Shown piece by piece: positions 4,106-43,671 of a stretch of DNA of 64,000 nt. Below the pieces are notes generated by a model, which had not been told where the DNA came from, searched no databases, and saw only the letters and a list, made by a program, of their open reading frames with translations. The stretch is taken from positions 62,001-126,000 of IMG/VR virus record IMGVR_UViG_3300028666_000022, one strand, 5' to 3'. How positions within the stretch are numbered: position 1 is the first letter of the stretch; each line of letters begins with the position of its first letter. A program made the translations under genes and the position numbers. The DNA is from a virus.

Positions 4106-5440
4106 TTACTTCTTTATGATCGAAACCATTGGCGATACTGCAATCACCTCTATCCCATTATCAAACTCGATGTTTGGAATTGCTTTTCTTAATATATTTA
4201 AACTCCCGTTTAAATCTGCATTTATCAATTTCTTTGATTTTGATCTATATAAACCCCTATAAATTCTTCTACCACTAAATTTATGTTTATTAATATCATT
4301 GTCTTCAATACCAATATTATTATTTTCACATTTTTTATCTTTCTTTTTATACACTGGTATCTCATCTTCATCTATAAAACTAGCCTTACTCGTATAACTT
4401 TCTTCCTGTATTAAGACATTTATACCAAGTAATTTAGCCTTATATTCTAACATCCATATAAACCTACTGTGTGGTATGCCTACAAATTTTTGATTACTCT
4501 CCTTGCCCATATTTATCTCTTGCTTCCACTCCTTATTATTACCAATTATTAAGGTATTAATATTGTTGTCAACTAAATGATTAATAATATATCGACTTGC
4601 TTTATGCAAATAATCATCAACTTTGTTATTCCTTTTATTTGTTAAATTCTTAATTCTATTGCTTGTCCCATATTGTTGTTTTTCTCCTTTCTTATTTATA
4701 TAATGATTTAAATCTGATTTGTAATGAGCTAAATTTTTATTATAATATTGATTAATACTTTTTAATGGTTTACCATTAATAATTATTGATTTAATTACAT
4801 TACTACCTATTGTTGCTAAATTATTTAAACCCAAATCAATACTAGCATACCTATTATTATTTGGCTTTAACTCAACTTCTTTTACTTCATATAATACTTC
4901 AATTACATAATGATTACCTTTTGGTATTACTCTACATTGCTTAATATTTTTAGAATTTATTTTAGTTTTAACCCTAATATTAGTTCTCGATAATTTAACT
5001 ATATTATTTTTTAATTCTTTTTTCGATATAGCATCTAATGTATAAATCAACATAAATCTACCATTTATCTTATCTTTATAATTGGGTAATTCAGGCTTAC
5101 CTTTATATTTAGATTTATTTTTATTATAATCCTTAATAGAAGCAAAGAAAGATTTCCAATTTTTATCTAATTGCATTAGGGTTTGATTTGATATTTTTCT
5201 AGGTAATTGTATATAATCAATATCATTAGAATCAATCATTAATCTATTAATATCATAATAATTTAAATAATTAGCATGATCAACTAAACCTAATTTTTTC
5301 TCATTACTTGTTTTAATAAATTCTTGTCTGATTATATAATTAGCTTTATTGTAAAGGTTTTTACTAAGAAAACATAGTTTATCAATTTCAATAAAATATT
5401 GATTAGATTTTTTAATTATATGTTTTTCTGTTAAAATCAC
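4106..5440 (-). CDS. tnpB: TnpB, RNA-guided nuclease of the IS607-linked type
   Basis: 444 aa. The RuvC-I Asp is in ASIDLGLNNLAT (D202) and the RuvC-III Asp in INADLNGSLNILRK (D409). The usual RuvC-II 'ExL' segment reads TLIIGNNKEWKQE, without the normal Glu. Downstream, a conserved Glu pair stands in IQEESYTSKASF (346-347). The Cys4 zinc finger between RuvC-II and -III is absent. This combination fits the TnpB clade with a relocated catalytic Glu that is related to Fanzor proteins and travels with IS607; that link is from family knowledge. TnpB cuts DNA next to a short target motif, guided by an RNA from the element's end, which would lie within or just past the gene's 3' end here. Confidence 0.9.
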   Translation of the reverse strand: MILTEKHIIKKSNQYFIEIDKLCFLSKNLYNKANYIIRQEFIKTSNEKKLGLVDHANYLNYYDINRLMIDSNDIDYIQLPRKISNQTLMQLDKNWKSFFASIKDYNKNKSKYKGKPELPNYKDKINGRFMLIYTLDAISKKELKNNIVKLSRTNIRVKTKINSKNIKQCRVIPKGNHYVIEVLYEVKEVELKPNNNRYASIDLGLNNLATIGSNVIKSIIINGKPLKSINQYYNKNLAHYKSDLNHYINKKGEKQQYGTSNRIKNLTNKRNNKVDDYLHKASRYIINHLVDNNINTLIIGNNKEWKQEINMGKESNQKFVGIPHSRFIWMLEYKAKLLGINVLIQEESYTSKASFIDEDEIPVYKKKDKKCENNNIGIEDNDINKHKFSGRRIYRGLYRSKSKKLINADLNGSLNILRKAIPNIEFDNGIEVIAVSPMVSIIKK

Positions 5441-5479
5441 TTTAAATTATTAATGTTATTAAATTATATTTTACTTATT

Positions 5480-6058
5480 TTAGTTTTCAATGAATTGTTT
5501 TATTTCTTCCTTATTCTTCTTTCTCCTTAAGCCATATATCCTTTCTGAAAATGAATAAAATATACTAATTAAATCATTTAGTAAATCTTCTTTATCTTCA
5601 TTTACTTGATTTATTACTAATATTTGTTTTCCTTTTAACTTAAGTAATAATTCAATATAATTAAAACCAAATCTTGTTAATCTATCTTTATTTTCAACAA
5701 TAATCATATTCCAATCATCTCTAACCAATATTTTATTTAATTTAGGACGATTATCATTCATACCTGAAGCAATTTCTTTAATTTCATCAATAATGATATA
5801 CGCATTTTTTGTTGCAAAATCACGTATTCTATTTAATTGATTATCCAATTCTAATTTCTTGTCATTATTAGAAACTCTAGCATATAAAATTACATTGGTT
5901 TGATTATTAATTTCAGGAAATAAGGGTATTTTAACATGGTTGGTTTCATCTAAGAAAGCACCTTTAATTTTACCAGCAACAAATCTATTCCAAGCTGTTT
6001 TATAAGTAACTGAATTTTCTCTTGCATATTCGGATAATTTTTTATATATTTGTTTCAT
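5480..6058 (-). CDS. tnpA: IS607-family serine recombinase TnpA
   Basis: 192 aa. The N-terminal 45 residues form a small HTH-like DNA-binding domain (YARENSVTYKTAWNRFVAGK). The catalytic domain opens with ILYARVSNNDKK, in which Ser63 is the expected nucleophile. It continues with the ENKDRLTRFGF block characteristic of IS607 resolvases. It should catalyse excision and integration of the element. It stands 39 bases upstream of tnpB. Confidence 0.9.
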   Translation of the reverse strand: MKQIYKKLSEYARENSVTYKTAWNRFVAGKIKGAFLDETNHVKIPLFPEINNQTNVILYARVSNNDKKLELDNQLNRIRDFATKNAYIIIDEIKEIASGMNDNRPKLNKILVRDDWNMIIVENKDRLTRFGFNYIELLLKLKGKQILVINQVNEDKEDLLNDLISIFYSFSERIYGLRRKKNKEEIKQFIEN

Positions 6059-6479: not shown

Positions 6480-6491
6480 TAATATCTATTT

Positions 6492-6680
6492 ATGAAAAAT
6501 TTAATTAATTTTATTTTCTTTAGATGGAGTAAGTGGGAAGTGTATATACCTAACATTACTGAAACAGTTGGATTATTTCCCGAAAAAAAAGTTGTTGTTG
6601 ATATTTACGTAAAAACAAATATCTATACAGGATTAAAAAAATATAAAAGAGTTGTTAAATATCGAATTAGGCCAGAATGA
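6492..6680 (+). CDS. Hypothetical protein, 62 aa
   Basis: Short basic protein beginning MKNLINFIFFRWSKW, predicted mostly beta. Its stop overlaps the next start (ATGA), so it is translated with the acetyltransferase gene that follows. Confidence 0.65.
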   Translation: MKNLINFIFFRWSKWEVYIPNITETVGLFPEKKVVVDIYVKTNIYTGLKKYKRVVKYRIRPE

Positions 6681-7030
6681 AATCCCTTACTCAAGAAATT
6701 CTTAATGAATTTGTTCTTGATTTAAAGAAGAATCGATTCAAAGATATTATCAAAGATCTTAAAATAGATTTGTCTTCTAATGAAGACAATACAGAATACA
6801 TTTATCTAGGTTTAATCATTCTTAGGAAAAAAGAAAGACATAAGGGATATGGTTCATTAATCATGAAAGAAATTATATCTTTAGCAAACGAATATAATCT
6901 TCCAATTAAGTTATACTCAACAGCAGCTTATGGTTCAAAGATTGATAAACTAAATGAATTTTATAATAAACATGGTTTTGTTTTAGATAATTTAATGTTG
7001 TGTTATTTTCCAAAAATTGTAACAAAATAA
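6677..7030 (+). CDS. GNAT-family acetyltransferase
   Basis: 117 aa with a recognisable acetyl-CoA site: L-I-I-L-R-K-K-E-R-H-K-G-Y-G (motif A, R/Q-x-x-G-x-G/A type). It is followed by a helix SLIMKEIISLANEYN and a motif B-like FYNKHGFVLDN. The substrate is unknown. Overlaps the previous gene by 4 bases. A class B promoter overlaps its last codons. Confidence 0.8.
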   Translation: MKSLTQEILNEFVLDLKKNRFKDIIKDLKIDLSSNEDNTEYIYLGLIILRKKERHKGYGSLIMKEIISLANEYNLPIKLYSTAAYGSKIDKLNEFYNKHGFVLDNLMLCYFPKIVTK

Positions 7031-7048
7031 ATTAATTTTCGTATAATT
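7019..7048 (+). promoter_or_regulatory. Class B (ECF-sigma-like) promoter
   Basis: GTAAC 7019-7023, 16 bases, CGTA 7040-7043 followed by TAAT. Overlaps the 3' end of the acetyltransferase gene and precedes the gene at 7068. Confidence 0.75.
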
Positions 7049-7067
7049 TTTAATTTAAAATTAATAA

Positions 7068-7394
7068 ATGAATAATATAAAATATATTGAACCCAATAAA
7101 AGCTTAATGGGGCGAATATTTAGATTTTTTGGTATTGAATTAAACACTAAATTCAATGATGGATATTTTCATACATTTGGTTATTCTGGAAAACAAAAAA
7201 ATAATAAAAGAGATATTATCATAATAGAAAAATTAGATGGAAATGTCATTAGTATACCTAACAATAAAAAATATTATACGTTTCAGAATAATTTTATTTA
7301 TAGTGGACACATTAAAAATATTGAAAAGACTATAGATAATAAACATAACACATTATTTTTAAATGAAAAAATAAGTGTTAATTGGGACGCATAA
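7068..7394 (+). CDS. Hypothetical protein, 108 aa
   Basis: Lies directly behind a class B promoter and before another, so it is probably a single-gene unit. Predicted beta-rich, basic, no membrane segment. Not recognised. Confidence 0.7.
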   Translation: MNNIKYIEPNKSLMGRIFRFFGIELNTKFNDGYFHTFGYSGKQKNNKRDIIIIEKLDGNVISIPNNKKYYTFQNNFIYSGHIKNIEKTIDNKHNTLFLNEKISVNWDA

Positions 7395-7412
7395 ATTATT
7401 TTTAAAGAATTA

Positions 7413-7442
7413 GTAACAAATTAGATTAATTTTCGTAATATA
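7413..7442 (+). promoter_or_regulatory. Class B (ECF-sigma-like) promoter
   Basis: GTAAC 7413-7417, 16 bases, CGTA 7434-7437 followed by ATAT. Drives the unit 7471-8353. Confidence 0.75.
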
Positions 7443-7470
7443 AACTATAATCAACAAAACAATAAAATTT

Positions 7471-7614
7471 ATGAAAAAAGAACAACAATGTAAAATATGT
7501 AATAATAAAAAACTAATTGAAGTATTGGTTATGGGAACGGATGTTGATTGGGTGGAATGCCCATATTGTTCGAATAAATCAGAATATATTAAATTTCAAA
7601 ACTCAGTTAATTAA
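7471..7614 (+). CDS. Small Cys4 zinc-ribbon protein, 47 aa
   Basis: Two CxxC knuckles (QCKICNNKK and ECPYCSNKS) separated by about 23 residues make a complete minimal zinc ribbon. Small phage proteins of this kind often bind nucleic acid or host enzymes; no specific role can be assigned. First gene after a class B promoter. Confidence 0.7.
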   Translation: MKKEQQCKICNNKKLIEVLVMGTDVDWVECPYCSNKSEYIKFQNSVN

Positions 7615-10351: not shown

Positions 10352-10570
10352 ATGAAAAAGAAGTTTAATAAAATTATGGAAGATTTAAAAAATAAAAATC
10401 TAATTGTTGTTCGAGTTAATAAAATAGAATTTGAATTAGATAATGGAGATATTTATCCTATCCCATTCGAATTAGATGTTGATGAAAATATTACTCTCGA
10501 AGAATTTCAAAAAATATTAAATGATTCAAAAGATGATATTATAAAAATACTTGATAAATATAATGAGTAA
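10352..10570 (+). CDS. Hypothetical acidic protein, 72 aa
   Basis: Ends inside the tnpA start (8-base overlap), so the two are co-translated. The product has a beta-strand pair then an acidic helix (ENITLEEFQKILND). It may belong to the mobile element or to the phage; the overlap suggests the former. Confidence 0.65.
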   Translation: MKKKFNKIMEDLKNKNLIVVRVNKIEFELDNGDIYPIPFELDVDENITLEEFQKILNDSKDDIIKILDKYNE

Positions 10571-11189
10571 ACTATTATCATTACAAAAAGTATCAGAAAT
10601 ATTGGGTGTAACTAAGAAAACATTAAGAATATGGGATAATGATGGTAAATTAGTTAGTATTAAAACTATTGGTGGTCATAGAAGATATAAAGAAGATGAT
10701 GTTAATAAATACATCGGTGAATATGTTGAAGTTAATATTAATAATGTTTTAACATATAGTAGAGTAAGTAGTCATGAACAAAAAACCAAAGGAGATTTAG
10801 ATAGACAATCACAAAGAATAAGTGAATATTGTGCTAAGAAAAAATACAAAGTAGAATATATTATTAAAGATGTTGGTTCAGGACTATCAGATACAAGAAG
10901 TGGATTTGTTAAAATGGTTGATTTGGTAATTAAGAGAAAAATTAATAAAGTAATCATTGAAAATAAAGATAGATTAACCAGATTTCAATTTAATTTAATT
11001 AAAGTATTTTTTAATAGTTATGATGTGGAAATTGAATGTATTGAAAATACGAATATATCAAATGAAGAAGAATTTGTAAATGATATAATGATGTTAATGG
11101 CAAGTTTTTCTGGTAAATTATATGGTAAGAGAAGTGTGAAACGTAAAAAAGAATTAAAAGAACAAAAATTAAAAGATAAAAATTTTTAA
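10563..11189 (+). CDS. tnpA: IS607-family serine recombinase TnpA with MerR-like HTH
   Basis: 208 aa from the ATG at 10563; a TTG at 10551 is possible. Residues 1-50 are a MerR/excisionase-type HTH (SLQKVSEILGVTKKTLRIW ... GGHRRYKEDDV). The resolvase domain has TYSRVSS (Ser69 nucleophile), QSQRISEYC and ENKDRLTRFQF. It should mobilise the element. Confidence 0.9.
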   Translation: MSKLLSLQKVSEILGVTKKTLRIWDNDGKLVSIKTIGGHRRYKEDDVNKYIGEYVEVNINNVLTYSRVSSHEQKTKGDLDRQSQRISEYCAKKKYKVEYIIKDVGSGLSDTRSGFVKMVDLVIKRKINKVIIENKDRLTRFQFNLIKVFFNSYDVEIECIENTNISNEEEFVNDIMMLMASFSGKLYGKRSVKRKKELKEQKLKDKNF

Positions 11190-11205
11190 AACGATACTAA
11201 TTATT

Positions 11206-12003
11206 ATGAAATTAATTCAGAAATATTTAAAAACCGATGATGAGATTGAATTATTAAGAGAGAGTAATTTATTAGTATCAAAAACACTTGCAGAAATTGC
11301 TAAAAATATAAAAGTTGGCGTTTCTACACTTTATCTTGATAAAATTGCTGAAGAGTTTATTATGGATAATAATGCAATACCTGCTTTTAAAGGATATAAT
11401 GGATTTCCAAATACATTATGTACATCAGTAAATGATGAAATAATTCATGGAATTCCATCTGATTATATTTTGAATGAAGGTGATATAATATCGGTTGATT
11501 GTGGTGTGATATTAAATGGATGGTATGGAGATAGTGCTTATACGTTTCCTGTTGGTAAAATTTCAAAGGAAATACTGCAATTATTGGTATATACTAAAGA
11601 ATCTCTTAAAGAAGGAATAAAAAAAGCAATCATAGGAAATAGAATTGGTGATATTTCTTATGCAGTTCAAACTAAAGTAGAAAGTGGTGGATATAGTGTT
11701 GTAAGAGAAATGGTTGGTCACGGTATTGGAAGAAATCTTCATGAAGAACCTAATATTCCAAATTATGGTAAGCAAGGAACGGGAATAAAACTTGAAAAGG
11801 GACTTGTAATATGTATTGAACCAATGATAAATCTTGGAAAAAGAGAAATGTTGTTAATGAAGGATGGATGGACAATAAAAACTGCTGATGGAAAACCTTC
11901 AGCACATTTCGAAAAAGCAATTGTGATTCACAAAGAAAAAGCAGATATATTAACAAATTTTGATTTTATTGAAAAAATTTTAGATAATAATGAAAATAAT
12001 TAG
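11206..12003 (+). CDS. map: Methionine aminopeptidase, type I
   Basis: 265 aa, normal length for type Ia enzymes. All five metal ligands are present: D98 (SVDCG), D109 (YGDSA), H172 (VGHGIG), E205 (CIEPM) and E236 (AHFEKA); the substrate His is H81 (IIHGIP). It removes the initiator Met from new proteins in the cytoplasm. The sequence is close to Bacteroidota chromosomal forms. It sits between tnpA (16-base gap) and tnpB (14-base overlap), so it is transcribed and probably translated with both. Such an enzyme is rare in phages; deformylases are much commoner. Confidence 0.95.
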   Translation: MKLIQKYLKTDDEIELLRESNLLVSKTLAEIAKNIKVGVSTLYLDKIAEEFIMDNNAIPAFKGYNGFPNTLCTSVNDEIIHGIPSDYILNEGDIISVDCGVILNGWYGDSAYTFPVGKISKEILQLLVYTKESLKEGIKKAIIGNRIGDISYAVQTKVESGGYSVVREMVGHGIGRNLHEEPNIPNYGKQGTGIKLEKGLVICIEPMINLGKREMLLMKDGWTIKTADGKPSAHFEKAIVIHKEKADILTNFDFIEKILDNNENN

Positions 12004-13126
12004 GTCAACTAAATGTAGTTTGAAGTTTTCTACTAAAAAGAAAATAAATGATTTGTCAACTATATTAGCAGAATATGCTAAAGTGGTTAATATTTTCATA
12101 AATTATTTTTGGTTAAATCCTGACAATACAAATAAAAATAAATTATTAAAAGAAATAGTTGATTTACCTTCAGAAACATGGTTGAGTGCAAGATTAAGAA
12201 AAGTGGCAGCAAGAGAAGCGATTGATATGATAAATGCATCTAAATTAAGATGGAAAAATAAAGCAGTAATTCCTGTTCATAAAGGAAATAGGATGTATGT
12301 TAGTTGTACCATTGCTGACTTAGTTCCTACTAAAAACACTAATTATAAAACTGAAGAAAGTCTTAGATTCGATGCTTGGTTGCATATACAATCAATTGGA
12401 AATAAAATGATAATGGATTTACCAATTAAATATCATAAACATTTTAATAAGTATAATAATATAGGTAAAAGATTAAACTCATACATAATAACAAAGAATT
12501 ACGTTCAGTTTAGTTTTGAAATTAATACACAACCTAAGAAAGAAGGTAAGAAATGTATTGGTATAGATACTGGTATTAACGCACTTGCTAGTTTGAATAA
12601 TGGTAATCAATATGGAAAAGATATTAAGGAATGTATTGAAAGAGTAAAAAGATGTCAACAAAAATCAAAAGGATGGTATGTTGCTAAAAGAGCATTAAAA
12701 CAGCGTATTGATGAAGTAGTAAAAGAATTAATGATAAAAGAGAATCCTGATTTAATAGTTGTGGAACGACTAAAGAATATGGGAGTTAAATCAAAAGCCA
12801 AACGTTTATTGGCTAAAAATATTAGACGTTCTATTGGAACATGGAACTGGAAGTATTGGTTAAAAAGGTTAGAAGGATATTGCGAAATTAACCGTGTTAG
12901 TTTTCGTTCGGTATTACCTTATTATACCAGTACAACTTGTCCTGTATGTGGTCATTCTGATAGGGGAAACCGAAATGGAAAGATATTCTTATGTCTTAAA
13001 TGTGAACACAAAGACAATGCTGATATAAATGCAGGAAAGAATATTTTAAATCGGTTTCTTATGGGACTCTACGGTGTCCATTACAAAGAATGTGAAGATG
13101 TACAATTTTGTGCAACTTTAGTTTAA
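11990..13126 (+). CDS. tnpB: TnpB, RNA-guided nuclease with complete RuvC and zinc finger
   Basis: 378 aa. RuvC-I CIGIDTGINALA (D193), RuvC-II LIVVERLKNMG (E259), RuvC-III KDNADINAGKNIL (D345) and a Cys4 finger (C317, C320, C335, C338) are all present, so it should be active. It starts inside the aminopeptidase gene. It is of a different subgroup from the 4106 protein. The guide RNA scaffold probably overlaps the 3' end of the gene, where GGACTCTACGGTGTCC (13064-13079) can form a hairpin. Confidence 0.9.
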   Translation: MKIIRSTKCSLKFSTKKKINDLSTILAEYAKVVNIFINYFWLNPDNTNKNKLLKEIVDLPSETWLSARLRKVAAREAIDMINASKLRWKNKAVIPVHKGNRMYVSCTIADLVPTKNTNYKTEESLRFDAWLHIQSIGNKMIMDLPIKYHKHFNKYNNIGKRLNSYIITKNYVQFSFEINTQPKKEGKKCIGIDTGINALASLNNGNQYGKDIKECIERVKRCQQKSKGWYVAKRALKQRIDEVVKELMIKENPDLIVVERLKNMGVKSKAKRLLAKNIRRSIGTWNWKYWLKRLEGYCEINRVSFRSVLPYYTSTTCPVCGHSDRGNRNGKIFLCLKCEHKDNADINAGKNILNRFLMGLYGVHYKECEDVQFCATLV

Positions 13127-16133: not shown

Positions 16134-17354
16134 TTAGTCCCTAACGATTGTAATATTATCTTTGGTATTAATAGTTTGATTTTCATTAATTAAATCATTA
16201 TTAATACCACTCTCTTTTACTTTTCTTCCTTCTTTTAAAATATTTAAGGCTGCATTTAGATCCCTGTCATGTTTCATCCCACATTTAGGACAAATCCACT
16301 CTCTTACCTTAAGAGTCAAGTTCTGGTTAATATACCCACATTCATTACATGCCTTACTTGAAGGATAAAAACGGTTTATTTTAGTGATAGTTTTATCACT
16401 CCAATTAGCTTTATATTCAAGCATGTTAATGAATTTGCCCCATGAGGCATCTGATATTGACTTATTTAATCCTGACTTAGCTGACTGACCATTAGGTAGG
16501 TATTTACCATTATCATCCTGTTTTGGTTTACAAGATTTTAACATACCTTTAATATTCAAGTCTTCTAAATAAATTTGATCATATTTTTTTATTAAATCTG
16601 TACTGATCTTATGTAAATTATCTACACGAGAATTGGTTATCTTCTTATGTATTCTCGCTACCTTTAATCTTTGTTTTTCATATCTATTACTTCCTTTAGT
16701 TTTTCTACTTAAATGTTGCTGTCCCCTTTTTAGCTTTTTCGCATATGTCTTTGTATATTTATTGTTTTTATATTTATAACCATCTGATGTAATAATTAGA
16801 TCCTTAATTCCCAAATCAATACCAACCTCTTTACCAGTTTTAGGTAACTTAACATGAGATGTTTCAACCAAAATAGAAACAAAATATTCATTAGTTGGTG
16901 TTTTAGAAACAGTGCATTGATGTATTTCACCTTTAAATTTTCTGTCAATTATAATTGGTATTCCTTCTTTAAATTTAGGTATATGTAATTTATTTTTTAT
17001 TAACTTTGTAAATTGTGGCACACAAAAACTATTTCTATCATGCTTACTCTTAAATCTTGGAAACCTTGTTCTTCCCTTAAAGAAACCATTATAAGCTCCA
17101 TCTAAACATTTAAGAGATTGTTGCATGGATTGAGAATTAGTTTCATTTAACCAAGTAAAATCATTATTTTGTTTTAGTGTGGTGAGAGATTTACAATTAT
17201 CAACATAACTTAAACCTTGTTTATTTGTTTTGTATTCTTCAATCCTTTCGTTTAAATAATAGTTATAAACAAACCTAATACACCCAAAATGTTTATTTAA
17301 TAAGATCATTTGGTTATTATCAGGTTTTAGTTTATATTTGTAAGCTTTTAACAT
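16134..17354 (-). CDS. tnpB: TnpB, RNA-guided nuclease
   Basis: 406 aa. N-terminal WED-type start MLKAYKYKLKP. Catalytic triad visible as VGIDLGIKDL (D180), IYLEDLNIKGM (E264) and HDRDLNAALNIL (D365). Cys4 finger at C336, C339, C355 and C358. All key residues are intact, so it should be an active nuclease. It is inserted within a GNAT gene that has an intact paralogue right next door. Confidence 0.92.
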   Translation of the reverse strand: MLKAYKYKLKPDNNQMILLNKHFGCIRFVYNYYLNERIEEYKTNKQGLSYVDNCKSLTTLKQNNDFTWLNETNSQSMQQSLKCLDGAYNGFFKGRTRFPRFKSKHDRNSFCVPQFTKLIKNKLHIPKFKEGIPIIIDRKFKGEIHQCTVSKTPTNEYFVSILVETSHVKLPKTGKEVGIDLGIKDLIITSDGYKYKNNKYTKTYAKKLKRGQQHLSRKTKGSNRYEKQRLKVARIHKKITNSRVDNLHKISTDLIKKYDQIYLEDLNIKGMLKSCKPKQDDNGKYLPNGQSAKSGLNKSISDASWGKFINMLEYKANWSDKTITKINRFYPSSKACNECGYINQNLTLKVREWICPKCGMKHDRDLNAALNILKEGRKVKESGINNDLINENQTINTKDNITIVRD

Positions 17355-29600: not shown

Positions 29601-29638
29601 AGTAAAGTATGAATTAATATTCATACTTTACTTTTTTA
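29601..29638 (+). terminator. Strong Rho-independent terminator
   Basis: AGTAAAGTATGAAT and ATTCATACTTTACT (14-bp arms with a 4-base loop) followed by TTTTT at 29633-29637. Confidence 0.85.
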
Positions 29639-29838: not shown

Positions 29839-29870
29839 AGAAACATTATAAATAATAAAAAATTAAAACA

Positions 29871-31154
29871 ATGGCACAATTTATTAAAGTCGAATGGCAA
29901 GCAAGTCCATCACCAATTTCTGGGTATAACATATATCGTGGTAATTCTGATGGCAATGTATCTAATACACCCCTTAACAATTTTCCAATTTTAACGTCAT
30001 TTTATGAGGACTACACAATATTTCCCGGTCAAACATATTGTTATGTAGTTACTGCTGTGTTAAATGGAGTGGAAAGTACTAGTTCATTACAAATATTTAC
30101 TGAACCAATTGCATTTATTAACTCACCATCACCTTTAGCATTAAATGCTTTTGGAGGATTTGGGTTATTAGCTGCTTCTACAATCACTAATGTTCCGGGA
30201 ACAGAATCAAGTGTTACAGGTGATGTTGGTGTATATCCGGGTTCATCTATTACTGGATTTGAAAATGTAAGAGTTTCGGGTTCATTTCACTTAGCTGATT
30301 ATGTTGCTGGTTATGCACAAAATTCATTAACAAACGCATTTAATGTTGGTATGGGTATTACTGGTGCAACAACAATACCAGCAGAATTAGGTGGACTTAG
30401 ATTAACTCCGGGTGTTTATTCAAATGTCACTTCAGTTCAAATTACTGGTACGTTAGTATTAGATGGTCAAGGAAATCCTAATGCAGCTTGGGTTTTTCAA
30501 ATAGGTTCAACATTAACAACTGCAGCAGGAAATAGTCATGTAGTTCTAGTTGGTGGTGCTCAAGCCACAAACGTAACTTGGTTAGTTGGTTCTTCTGCAA
30601 CATTAGACGTTGATACATTTTTTGCTGGTAATATTATTGCATATGCATCAATAACTGTTAATACCAACGCTTGTGTTAATGGTAGATTAGGTGCAAGAAC
30701 AGGTGCAATTACATTGGATGATAATGCTGTTATTGTTTATGGTGCATGTCATGAGGCTTTACCAGCATCACCTCCAAATACACCTCCATCACCACCTTCT
30801 GCACCAACAGGTATTATTATTGTTGATAGAAATGCTGATGGTGTTAATAACAATGGACCAGTACTACCAATTGTATTTACATCTGAAATTACTGATATTA
30901 CATCTACTAGTGCTAATGGTGGTGGAAACGTAACATTTGATGGTTACACACCAATTGTTTCACGTGGTGTAGCATTTGCTACTTCACCAAGTCCAACTGT
31001 ATTAAGTACAAACAATGGTATTGGTGCAGGTATTTTCGGTAGTTCTATTACTGAATTATTGTCAGATACAAGATATTATGTGAGAGCATATGCGATAAAC
31101 TCTGTTGGAATTTCTTATGGAGATAATGTAAGTTTCGTAACATTGCCAGCATAA
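29871..31154 (+). CDS. FN3 + DUF3494 (ice-binding-like fold) + FN3-like protein
   Basis: 427 aa in three parts. Residues 1-80 resemble an FN3 domain (WQASPSPISGYNIYRGNSDG, TYCYVVTAVLNGVES). Residues 90-290 carry the DUF3494 blocks in order: FGLLAASTITNV, VTGDVGVYPGSSITGF, LTPGVY, GTLVLDGQGNPNAAWVFQIG, LVGGAQATNVTWLVG and VNGRLGARTGAITLDDNAVI. A Pro-rich linker (PASPPNTPPSPPSAP) leads to a second FN3-like domain ending VSFVTLPA. There is no signal peptide. On a phage it is probably an exposed virion decoration or adhesin. Its own class C promoter and terminator isolate it. Confidence 0.9.
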   Translation: MAQFIKVEWQASPSPISGYNIYRGNSDGNVSNTPLNNFPILTSFYEDYTIFPGQTYCYVVTAVLNGVESTSSLQIFTEPIAFINSPSPLALNAFGGFGLLAASTITNVPGTESSVTGDVGVYPGSSITGFENVRVSGSFHLADYVAGYAQNSLTNAFNVGMGITGATTIPAELGGLRLTPGVYSNVTSVQITGTLVLDGQGNPNAAWVFQIGSTLTTAAGNSHVVLVGGAQATNVTWLVGSSATLDVDTFFAGNIIAYASITVNTNACVNGRLGARTGAITLDDNAVIVYGACHEALPASPPNTPPSPPSAPTGIIIVDRNADGVNNNGPVLPIVFTSEITDITSTSANGGGNVTFDGYTPIVSRGVAFATSPSPTVLSTNNGIGAGIFGSSITELLSDTRYYVRAYAINSVGISYGDNVSFVTLPA

Positions 31155-31163
31155 TAAAATTTG

Positions 31164-31204
31164 AACCATCAAAACTAAATAATTAATAATAGTTTTGATG
31201 GTTT
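31164..31204 (+). terminator. Rho-independent terminator
   Basis: AACCATCAAAACTA (31164-31177) pairs perfectly with TAGTTTTGATGGTT (31190-31203), followed by TATATAT. Ends the DUF3494 gene transcript. Confidence 0.75.
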
Positions 31205-31242
31205 ATATATAAAAATAAAATTAAATAAAAATAAATAAAATT

Positions 31243-32322
31243 ATGAGTTCAATATTTAGAAAATTAAAAATAGCAAATAATGCAACTGTCACAGCTACAT
31301 TATTTAATAAACTAATGGATGCATTTGACAATGGTGTAGATGGTGTTTTTTTCACAACTCCTATTCGTTATTCTACTAATTATGGTATAACATCTCATTC
31401 AAGTGGTGGTCAAACACTAGCAACAATATTAACATCAGAAATAAATAATGTAAGTCTTGTTAGAGCAAATGGTGATAGTGTAAAATTAGTATCAGCAAGA
31501 CCGGGTTATTCTATTACAGTAAAAAATAATGGTCAACATAATCTATTGGTTTATCCATATGAATTAGATTTTATTGATGATGGATTAGTAAATGTGCCAA
31601 TAACAATGTTACCTGAAGAAACGAGAGTATTTAGATCAATTAGTGATTCGCGTTGGGAAAGTATGTCTGATAAAATTCAAAATAGTATATCTACACCATC
31701 GGCATATAATTTACATTTTGCTTCAACATTTGCGGTTCTTACTAACGGTACAATTACAATTAGTAATCCAAAATTAATAATACCTGATGGGGATTCAGGT
31801 GAAACTACGTTAACACCATTAACAGGTATAAAATTTATAAATGGTTCTAACAAAGGATTAAGTACAAGTGCAGTAACTAGTGCAAATAATTTATATAATG
31901 AATTAGTTACTTTAAGTGGTCATACTTTCGGTGCAGTAAATTTAGAAACTGTAAATGTTGGTTATGGTACAGGGAGATTTGTACCCGGTGTTTATATTGG
32001 CTCAACAGGTATAGTAACATCTGCTTCACAAACAATTACATTGGTTGGTGATGGAGATTATGTATTCATAAGTCAAGGTGCAATGACATTTGGTGCAACA
32101 AACACAATTTTATTAACACATGGTGCTCAAGCAAATAGAGTATTTTGGGTATCTGTTGGTGCAATCACCACTGGTGCAGTAAATGTTGTTAAAGGAAACT
32201 TTATAACCACTGCAGCAATTAATATTGGTGCAACAAATGATATAGAAGGAAGACTTTTATCAACAATGACAGCAGCAATCACATTTGATGGTACAGCGAC
32301 TAACCTTTATTTATCAAAATAA
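31243..32322 (+). CDS. Second DUF3494-like (ice-binding fold) virion protein
   Basis: 359 aa. Residues 1-150 have a different, beta-rich head that begins MSSIFRKLKIANNATVTATL. From about 165 onward the DUF3494 pattern reappears in diverged form: VGYGTGRFVPGVYIGSTG, ITLVGDGDYVFISQGAM, LLTHGAQANRVFWVSVGAI, then INIGATNDIEGRLLSTMTAA. No FN3 modules. Its head may attach to the virion and the DUF3494 part be displayed. Confidence 0.75.
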   Translation: MSSIFRKLKIANNATVTATLFNKLMDAFDNGVDGVFFTTPIRYSTNYGITSHSSGGQTLATILTSEINNVSLVRANGDSVKLVSARPGYSITVKNNGQHNLLVYPYELDFIDDGLVNVPITMLPEETRVFRSISDSRWESMSDKIQNSISTPSAYNLHFASTFAVLTNGTITISNPKLIIPDGDSGETTLTPLTGIKFINGSNKGLSTSAVTSANNLYNELVTLSGHTFGAVNLETVNVGYGTGRFVPGVYIGSTGIVTSASQTITLVGDGDYVFISQGAMTFGATNTILLTHGAQANRVFWVSVGAITTGAVNVVKGNFITTAAINIGATNDIEGRLLSTMTAAITFDGTATNLYLSK

Positions 32323-32354: not shown

Positions 32355-32621
32355 ATGAAAAATAGTAAACCCTTAAAAATAAAAGACCAGAACGATATTA
32401 TACTCTGGTCTTTTATTACAAAACGTAAAAAATTAGAAATACTAAATGATTCAATAGAATTAATTCGAAAAATTGGTAAAAATAAACCTAAAGATTTGAA
32501 TTTAATAAAAAAAATAATAAATCTTCATAATGAATATAGATTTCCATTGGTTCAACTTATGGACACTACACAAAAAAGTATTGATATTGCATATCAATTT
32601 TTAGTTTTTTTAACTAAATGA
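32355..32621 (+). CDS. Hypothetical protein, 88 aa (hairpin inside its 5' end)
   Basis: A charged helical product. Codons 10-20 are part of a perfect 10-bp terminator-like hairpin (32381-32414), so either it is expressed only when the hairpin fails, or it is not a real gene. The next gene starts 65 bases on behind a class C motif. Confidence 0.5.
   Translation: MKNSKPLKIKDQNDIILWSFITKRKKLEILNDSIELIRKIGKNKPKDLNLIKKIINLHNEYRFPLVQLMDTTQKSIDIAYQFLVFLTK
32381..32414 (+). terminator. Terminator-like hairpin within a coding frame
   Basis: AAAAGACCAG and CTGGTCTTTT with a 14-base loop, the T-run forming part of the stem. It lies 59 bases after the second DUF3494 stop and is the natural terminator for that gene, yet it is 27 bases into the next frame. 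Could act as an attenuator. Confidence 0.65.
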
Positions 32622-34167: not shown

Positions 34168-34707
34168 ATGATATTAGCAATAAGAAATATGAAAGGAACT
34201 GCATGTATTATGTATGTGAAAAATGTTTTTAAAAAATTACATTTACACTATATCTCGATTGAACTTGGTAAAATTGAAACTATTGAAGATTTAGACGATA
34301 AAACATTATATAAGTTAAATGCCCTTCTAAAAGAAGGTGAACTTGAAATAATAGATAATAAAGAAATAACTATAGTAAAACAAATAAAATTAATCATATT
34401 TAATTTGATACAAAATAATAGATCATTAAACAATACTATATCTGTTTTAATTAGTAAAAAACTAAATAAAAAATATAGATATTTATCCAAAATATTTACA
34501 ATACAATGCGGTATTAATATTAACGAATATATTAAACAAGTAAAAGTAGAGAAAATAAAAGAATATCTTAAAGAAGATAAGTTAAAGATTTCTGAAATTT
34601 CTACTAAAATGCATTTTAGTAGTTCATCACAATTATCACATATTTTTAAAAAAACAACAAATATAACCCCCACACAATTTAAGAAATTATATTTCAATAA
34701 AAAATAA
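34168..34707 (+). CDS. AraC-family transcriptional regulator with HMA-like N-terminus
   Basis: 179 aa. The C-terminal 85 residues contain two HTHs: YLSKIFTIQCGININEYIKQ and ISEISTKMHFSSSSQLSHIF, ending ITPTQFKKLYF, the AraC signature. The N-terminal 70 residues match the pattern of Bacteroidota AraC proteins that begin with a ferredoxin-like (HMA-type) fold, but the CxxC metal site is degraded (KGTAC). Likely acquired from a host. It may sense a ligand or act constitutively. Its gene follows the fibre gene and precedes a class B promoter. Confidence 0.85.
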   Translation: MILAIRNMKGTACIMYVKNVFKKLHLHYISIELGKIETIEDLDDKTLYKLNALLKEGELEIIDNKEITIVKQIKLIIFNLIQNNRSLNNTISVLISKKLNKKYRYLSKIFTIQCGININEYIKQVKVEKIKEYLKEDKLKISEISTKMHFSSSSQLSHIFKKTTNITPTQFKKLYFNKK

Positions 34708-43308: not shown

Positions 43309-43671
43309 TTATTTATAATACATTTTAATAAAATTATCATATTCATTTCTTGTGATATTAAGTTCTTTAGTTATTTTATTAATTCTTTTATTGTTTAAAA
43401 TAATTGCAATTAATATTATTAAAACAATTGAAACTATTATCATTAAATATGTTATTATAACAATATGTATAATTGGTTTTGAAATATTTAAAATAGTACC
43501 AATAAAACCAATAAAAAATAATAACATTAAAATATCATTAATTGCATTACTTAATATTAATCTTCTTTTTTCATTTTCTTTAGAAAAATATTTATAAATA
43601 AATATTATAAACTTGTTTGGTAAATGTTTGTAGTAAATACTATTAAAATAATCTCTAGTTATGTTTTCCAT
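43309..43671 (-). CDS. Two-span membrane protein, 120 aa
   Basis: Two long hydrophobic helices (about 46-64 and 72-92) followed by a basic C-terminus with NKRINKITKELNITRNEYDN, which looks like a small HTH-like or helical end. Unit of one gene between a class C motif and a terminator. Function unknown. Confidence 0.7.
   Translation of the reverse strand: MENITRDYFNSIYYKHLPNKFIIFIYKYFSKENEKRRLILSNAINDILMLLFFIGFIGTILNISKPIIHIVIITYLMIIVSIVLIILIAIILNNKRINKITKELNITRNEYDNFIKMYYK

Follow-up and report, generated by a model that had tools for sequence, protein, structure and literature searches.

The closest described relatives of the locus reported here are the DUF3494 ice-binding proteins, among them AnpIBP (7bwx), EFcIBP (6eio), and FfIBP (4nu2), with which it shares a Pfam match, a beta-solenoid accompanied by a helix, and a Ser/Thr/Ala B-face. 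The two proteins described here, P1 and P2, differ from these in being encoded by a phage, in lacking secretion, in being joined to FN3 or tail-associated domains, and in that any ice binding by them would be putative. A second comparison is offered by the Ig-like decoration and adhesin domains of phages, which bind epithelia when displayed (PMC13370021). Like these, DUF3494 in phages is promiscuous (sheath, baseplate, and fibre), occurs as an optional insertion, and has a proposed role in surface adhesion; however, its fold is a beta-solenoid, and it has no match in PHROGs or, by tblastn with three queries and a low-complexity filter that may hide some matches, in 50,697 deposited phage records. 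Phage contigs carrying PF11999 were also reported among Central Arctic vOTUs, where the genes were taken to be auxiliary and to cryoprotect the host (PMC11515562), whereas the relatives described here include fusions to virion proteins and lack a secretion signal. A single antifreeze protein has also been recorded from viruses of the Southern Ocean (PMC8407431). The only confident BFVD matches to the DUF3494 fold came from Hyperionvirus, which shares the viral occurrence of the fold but is a eukaryotic giant virus without a link to tail proteins. Within the literature collection that was searched, no paper combined DUF3494 and phage. Neither P1 nor P2 matched a PHROGs family or a known virion family. 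The missing PHROGs family, the lack of matches in deposited phage records, and the restriction to Hyperionvirus in BFVD may explain why a virion role of the domain has escaped notice.

P1 and P2 lie next to each other in the window, the whole 64,000-nucleotide stretch of viral DNA that was analyzed (Table 1). A first-pass annotation had proposed two adjacent DUF3494 proteins at 29871-32322; both genes are real, and both score above the Pfam cut-off of 28.7 bits for PF11999, P1 with 176.5 bits (E 7.4e-52) and P2 with 54.3 bits (E 1.9e-14), and no further PF11999 match was found in the virus record of 339,898 bases. Of the FN3-type domains that had been described as flanking the P1 domain, the N-terminal one is a Pfam fn3 match of 25.3 bits against a cut-off of 25; the C-terminal ~95 residues have no match in Pfam, recur in uncultured phage records at 44-48% identity, and were predicted as a beta-sandwich at low confidence. 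In P2, no FN3 domain was found by Pfam, and alignments place the true start of its DUF3494 domain near residue 156, ahead of the Pfam boundary at 205. The N-terminal domain of P2 has no match of its own in the window version; the version in L011, a viral contig carrying the same pair, is 35% identical (E 8e-4) to a gene of siphovirus MW202657 that lies directly 3' of an annotated tail-fibre gene.

Table 1. Positions of the P1-P2 genes, their domains, and neighboring features in the window
Feature	Position	Strand	Description or basis
Terminator-like hairpin upstream of P1, 14 pairs and T-run	29601..29632	+	
5' hairpin pairing the P1 start codon	29795..29882	+	dG -25.6 kcal/mol, z -8.4
P1 gene	29871..31154	+	427 aa: FN3, DUF3494, Pro-rich linker, FN3-like; no signal peptide
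fn3 domain, P1 residues 5-76	29883..30098	+	Pfam PF00041; beta-sandwich in model
DUF3494/PF11999 domain, P1 residues 100-287	30168..30731	+	Pfam; sequence and fold matches to ice-binding proteins in PDB
C-terminal FN3-like repeat domain, P1 residues 330-424	30858..31142	+	Identity in relatives; model
Hairpin between P1 and P2	31159..31208	+	z -6.3
P2 gene	31243..32322	+	359 aa: tail-associated N-terminal domain, DUF3494; no signal peptide
N-terminal beta-domain, P2 residues ~54-140	31402..31662	+	Match of the L011 version in MW202657
DUF3494 domain, P2 residues ~156-357 (Pfam 205-351)	31708..32313	+	Pfam, profile, fold
88-aa ORF between P2 and the fibre-like gene	32355..32621	+	Conserved; counterparts of 92 aa (L004) and 99 aa (L010) at the corresponding position
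Tail-fibre-like gene, 479 aa	32686..34125	+	Mosaic alignment

AlphaFold models built on shallow alignments of the window proteins and their viral relatives predicted a beta-solenoid with a long helix for both DUF3494 domains, with pLDDT mostly 66-96 in P1 and 70-92 in P2; the N-terminal part of P2 was modeled at low confidence. The P1 model matched AnpIBP with a target-normalized TM of 0.94 and a Foldseek E of 1.7e-16, while the P2 model matched FfIBP (E 6.7e-10), its best PDB match by both profile and fold, and AnpIBP (TM 0.85); the Foldseek matches of the two models included 7bwy, 6eio, and 7ehk. The first-pass annotation had staked its reading on this fold appearing in structure predictions, and since Foldseek returned solved ice-binding proteins for both proteins, that part of it stands.

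The pair was found, with its order kept, in three other viral contigs: L004 (66 kb; 77% identity for P1 and 80% for P2), L010 (362 kb; 71% and 73%), and L011. The order P1, P2, ~90-aa ORF, and fibre-like gene is common to the window, L004, and L010, while L011 has P1 and P2 alone. The C-terminal domain of P1 follows the same division, being present in L004 and L010 and absent from L011 and other P1 relatives, so that among members of the pair only those of large phages carry it. With dN/dS (NG86, against L004 and L010) of ~0.3 for P1 and ~0.25 for P2 (range about 0.22-0.36), both genes are, by this estimate, under purifying selection; the fibre-like gene diverges faster (~0.65). The two DUF3494 domains are indeed diverged copies, as had been suggested: they are 29% identical and fall in separate clades of the tree, which rules out a recent tandem duplication, although the placement of P2 is unsure owing to long branches.

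As in the first-pass annotation, the neighboring 479-aa gene looks fibre-like by its anatomy, with ~135 conserved N-terminal residues, a variable middle, a GHTHSQY motif, and a C-terminal region common to L004; no match to it was found in Pfam, PHROGs, or PDB. Directly 3' of it lies an AraC-type helix-turn-helix gene (phrog_7620; 34168-34707), which is kept in L004 (175 aa). In the large phages, the pair is set among mixed late and accessory genes, with glycosyltransferase-like genes (L004) and AraC-like ones nearby. Searches of this phage (G000) for a tail sheath (PF04984, phrog_2839) and for Baseplate_J found neither, and no tail gene was recognized by which P1 and P2 could be placed. Elsewhere in the window, TnpB-like genes are present at 4106-6058, 10551-13126, and 16134-17354, two of them adjoining serine-recombinase-like genes (IS607-like by eye).

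The first-pass annotation had also assigned each gene its own transcription signals, of which the hairpins were confirmed, before P1 and between P1 and P2, and the promoters were not, as sigma-70-type matches were as frequent as expected by chance (25 versus 24.3). The leader hairpin of P1 is the strongest among 82 gene starts in the window; an analogue of different sequence is found in L004 (z -5.3) and is absent in L010. The hairpin between the two genes recurs at the same place, with differing sequence, in both L004 (z -7.9) and L010 (z -5.8). The motif TATAAATA lies at 29847-29854 within the 3' half of the leader hairpin; as a late-promoter code it was rejected, with 30 occurrences seen against 35.5 expected. 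Rfam gave no match within 26-40 kb. Late genes of T4 are hairpin-gated. By analogy, the leader hairpin would silence read-through early transcripts, and a late start inside it would permit translation of P1. A 120-aa gene on the minus strand (43309-43671) ranks second in the window for the strength of its leader structure (z -7.2). At 32378-32417, a perfect 14-bp hairpin falls in the opening codons of the 88-aa ORF; it may serve P2 as a terminator or processing site that overlaps the next gene.

To place the pair among related genes, alignment-based scans of IMG/VR were used, yielding 41, 71, and 66 loci and, after removal of redundancy, 113 ORFs, all from metagenomic contigs; PF11999 was present in 44/44 of the longest. 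In the tree, the phage domains mostly form clades of their own. DUF3494 was found in one reading frame with Baseplate_J (phrog_6 baseplate wedge) in four members, with tail sheaths of two families in L045 (phrog_2839) and L049 (T4 gp18-like, E 1.2e-33), while L195, L246, and L247 combine it with domains of tail fibres and minor tail proteins. Ig-type He_PIG repeats occur in two members, and K1-lyase_C was recorded as a weak match. The sheath of L045 (on contig G035) is ~71% identical to those of two other contigs, G022 and G028, over residues 1-274 and 87-88% identical over the C-terminal ~946 residues (504-1447), and the intervening DUF3494 segment of ~220 residues is missing from both. Near-identical sheaths with and without the domain are direct sequence evidence that it is an optional insertion in a virion protein. 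The viral contig G028, 223 kb long, itself has five genes (L038, L048, and L145) that together contain six DUF3494 domains, and it has a Baseplate_J gene in addition to its sheath without DUF3494.

The position of the pair in L011 points in the same direction. There, tape-measure-like (phrog_1538) and head-protease-like genes (phrog_34096; phrog_15223 protease) and a putative capsid gene, taken as such from its position, are followed by P1 and P2, with a portal gene (phrog_33693, E 5.6e-28) on their 3' side. Another DUF3494 gene, in L018, adjoins terminase and portal genes. DUF3494 thus occurs in several unrelated virion proteins, the mark of the virion-decoration class, and its role as a promiscuous virion-decoration domain in phages in general is well supported by these comparisons. 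For P1 and P2 of this phage, membership in the same class is likely. Points that weigh against it are that neither protein matches a known virion family, that the fibre-like neighbor is absent from the databases, that the surroundings of the pair in large phages are mixed, and that a signal-peptide form occurs in L221. The earlier suggestion that they are virion surface proteins is strongly favored by the fusions of their relatives and by the head, portal, and tape-measure module of L011; for the two proteins themselves, we infer their presence in the virion, their tail position, their ligand, and the benefit they bring.

Secretion signals distinguish the phage genes from their bacterial relatives. 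Scored by the same rule, a hydropathy heuristic rather than a trained predictor, a signal-like N-terminus was found in 68/82 bacterial relatives versus 4/109 phage ORFs (2/42 in an earlier set). The sequences of P1 and P2 contain no signal-like stretch at their N-termini, as the first-pass annotation had stated, and their close homologues score low. Secreted microbial ice-binding proteins are recognized by an N-terminal signal peptide, which P1 and P2 lack; a host-protecting auxiliary gene would encode a secretable host-type protein outside virion modules, and the L011 pair lies in a structural module. Among the four signal-like phage ORFs, L221 alone resembles a true signal peptide by eye: this viral-contig DUF3494 gene (6485-7606) begins with a plain signal peptide (MKKILLTFAISLLLFGKAFAQ) and could represent a true secreted, host-type form.

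As virion-decoration proteins, P1 and P2 would belong to the late particle proteins of a large tailed phage and probably sit at its tail tip or fibre, with the DUF3494 beta-solenoid serving as an exposed binding module, as phages use Ig-like domains. P2 would couple it with a small domain of a type found beside tail fibres. The flat Ser/Thr/Ala/Gly face of the solenoid may make many weak contacts with an ordered surface, most likely a host or matrix glycan, and such contacts could keep the particle near its host ahead of engagement of the true receptor.

The alternative that survives best is that the ordered surface is ice. DUF3494 on the particle would then concentrate the phage at ice or brine channels with ice-associated hosts, or protect particles on freezing. 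The B-face strands, defined after the AnpIBP paper (PMC7277481) and read from the alignment, are TSVQIT, STLTTA, SSATLD, ASITVN, and GAITLD in P1 and TGIVTS, GAMTFG, GAITTG, AAINIG, and AAITFD in P2. At the outward positions (1, 2, and 4 of strands 3-6), A, G, S, T, or N occupies 12/12 sites in each protein, and by this alignment neither has lost the canonical ice-binding face. S153 and T156 of AnpIBP (PMC7277481) correspond to Ser and Thr in SSATLD of P1, and the regular A-x-T/N ladder of P2 (GAMT/GAIT/AAIN/AAIT) resembles the T-A/G-x-T/N motif of FfIBP, its best profile match in PDB. However, conservation of the B-face is 0.97 in the phage domains versus 0.96 in the bacterial relatives, which are mostly Streptomyces and other soil bacteria. 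As the face is equally intact in soil Streptomyces, it is not diagnostic and implies no ice binding and no cold habitat; the cold or sea-ice habitat hinted at in the first-pass annotation is not supported, since mesophilic soil actinomycetes have equally similar DUF3494 domains with an identical type of B-face. Ice binding by P1 and P2 is possible, without being indicated by their sequences, and an ice-adhesive virion is unlikely. Rather improbable, too, is the broader proposal that phages carry working ice-binding domains on their sheath, baseplate, and tail proteins, by which virions would stick to ice and encounter hosts bound there.

Less probable still, and doubtful in our view, is a purely structural role, in which the solenoids, without any ligand, merely lend stiffness to virion parts or hold them apart. 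In favor of such a role, phage spikes often contain beta-solenoids, and the domain is internal, with >60 residues on either side, in 72/113 ORFs. Against it, the precise gain or loss in near-identical sheaths argues that the domain is an optional, exposed addition, and the small, flat residues of the B-face show strong conservation. That P1 and P2 are made in the infected cell or freed at lysis to guard host or particles from freezing is very unlikely: this reading can draw on the published AMG annotation of phage PF11999 (PMC11515562), on the signal peptide of L221, and on some bacterial ice-binding proteins that likewise lack signal peptides (PMC9957290), but the absence of signal peptides in P1, P2, and ~96% of phage members, the fusions to sheath and baseplate, and the virion-module position of the L011 pair argue against host cryoprotection.

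Collectively, the comparisons indicate that phage DUF3494 is a surface-display module of the particle, and not a host frost-protection gene. The fold of an antifreeze protein would be a new addition to the domains that decorate phage particles, and the published host-cryoprotection reading of phage PF11999 genes is called into question. Near-identical tail sheaths with and without DUF3494 provide a ready comparison. If ice binding were true, it would be a first mechanism for enrichment of phages at ice surfaces; if glycan binding were true, the DUF3494 of mesophiles might more generally serve to bind surfaces.
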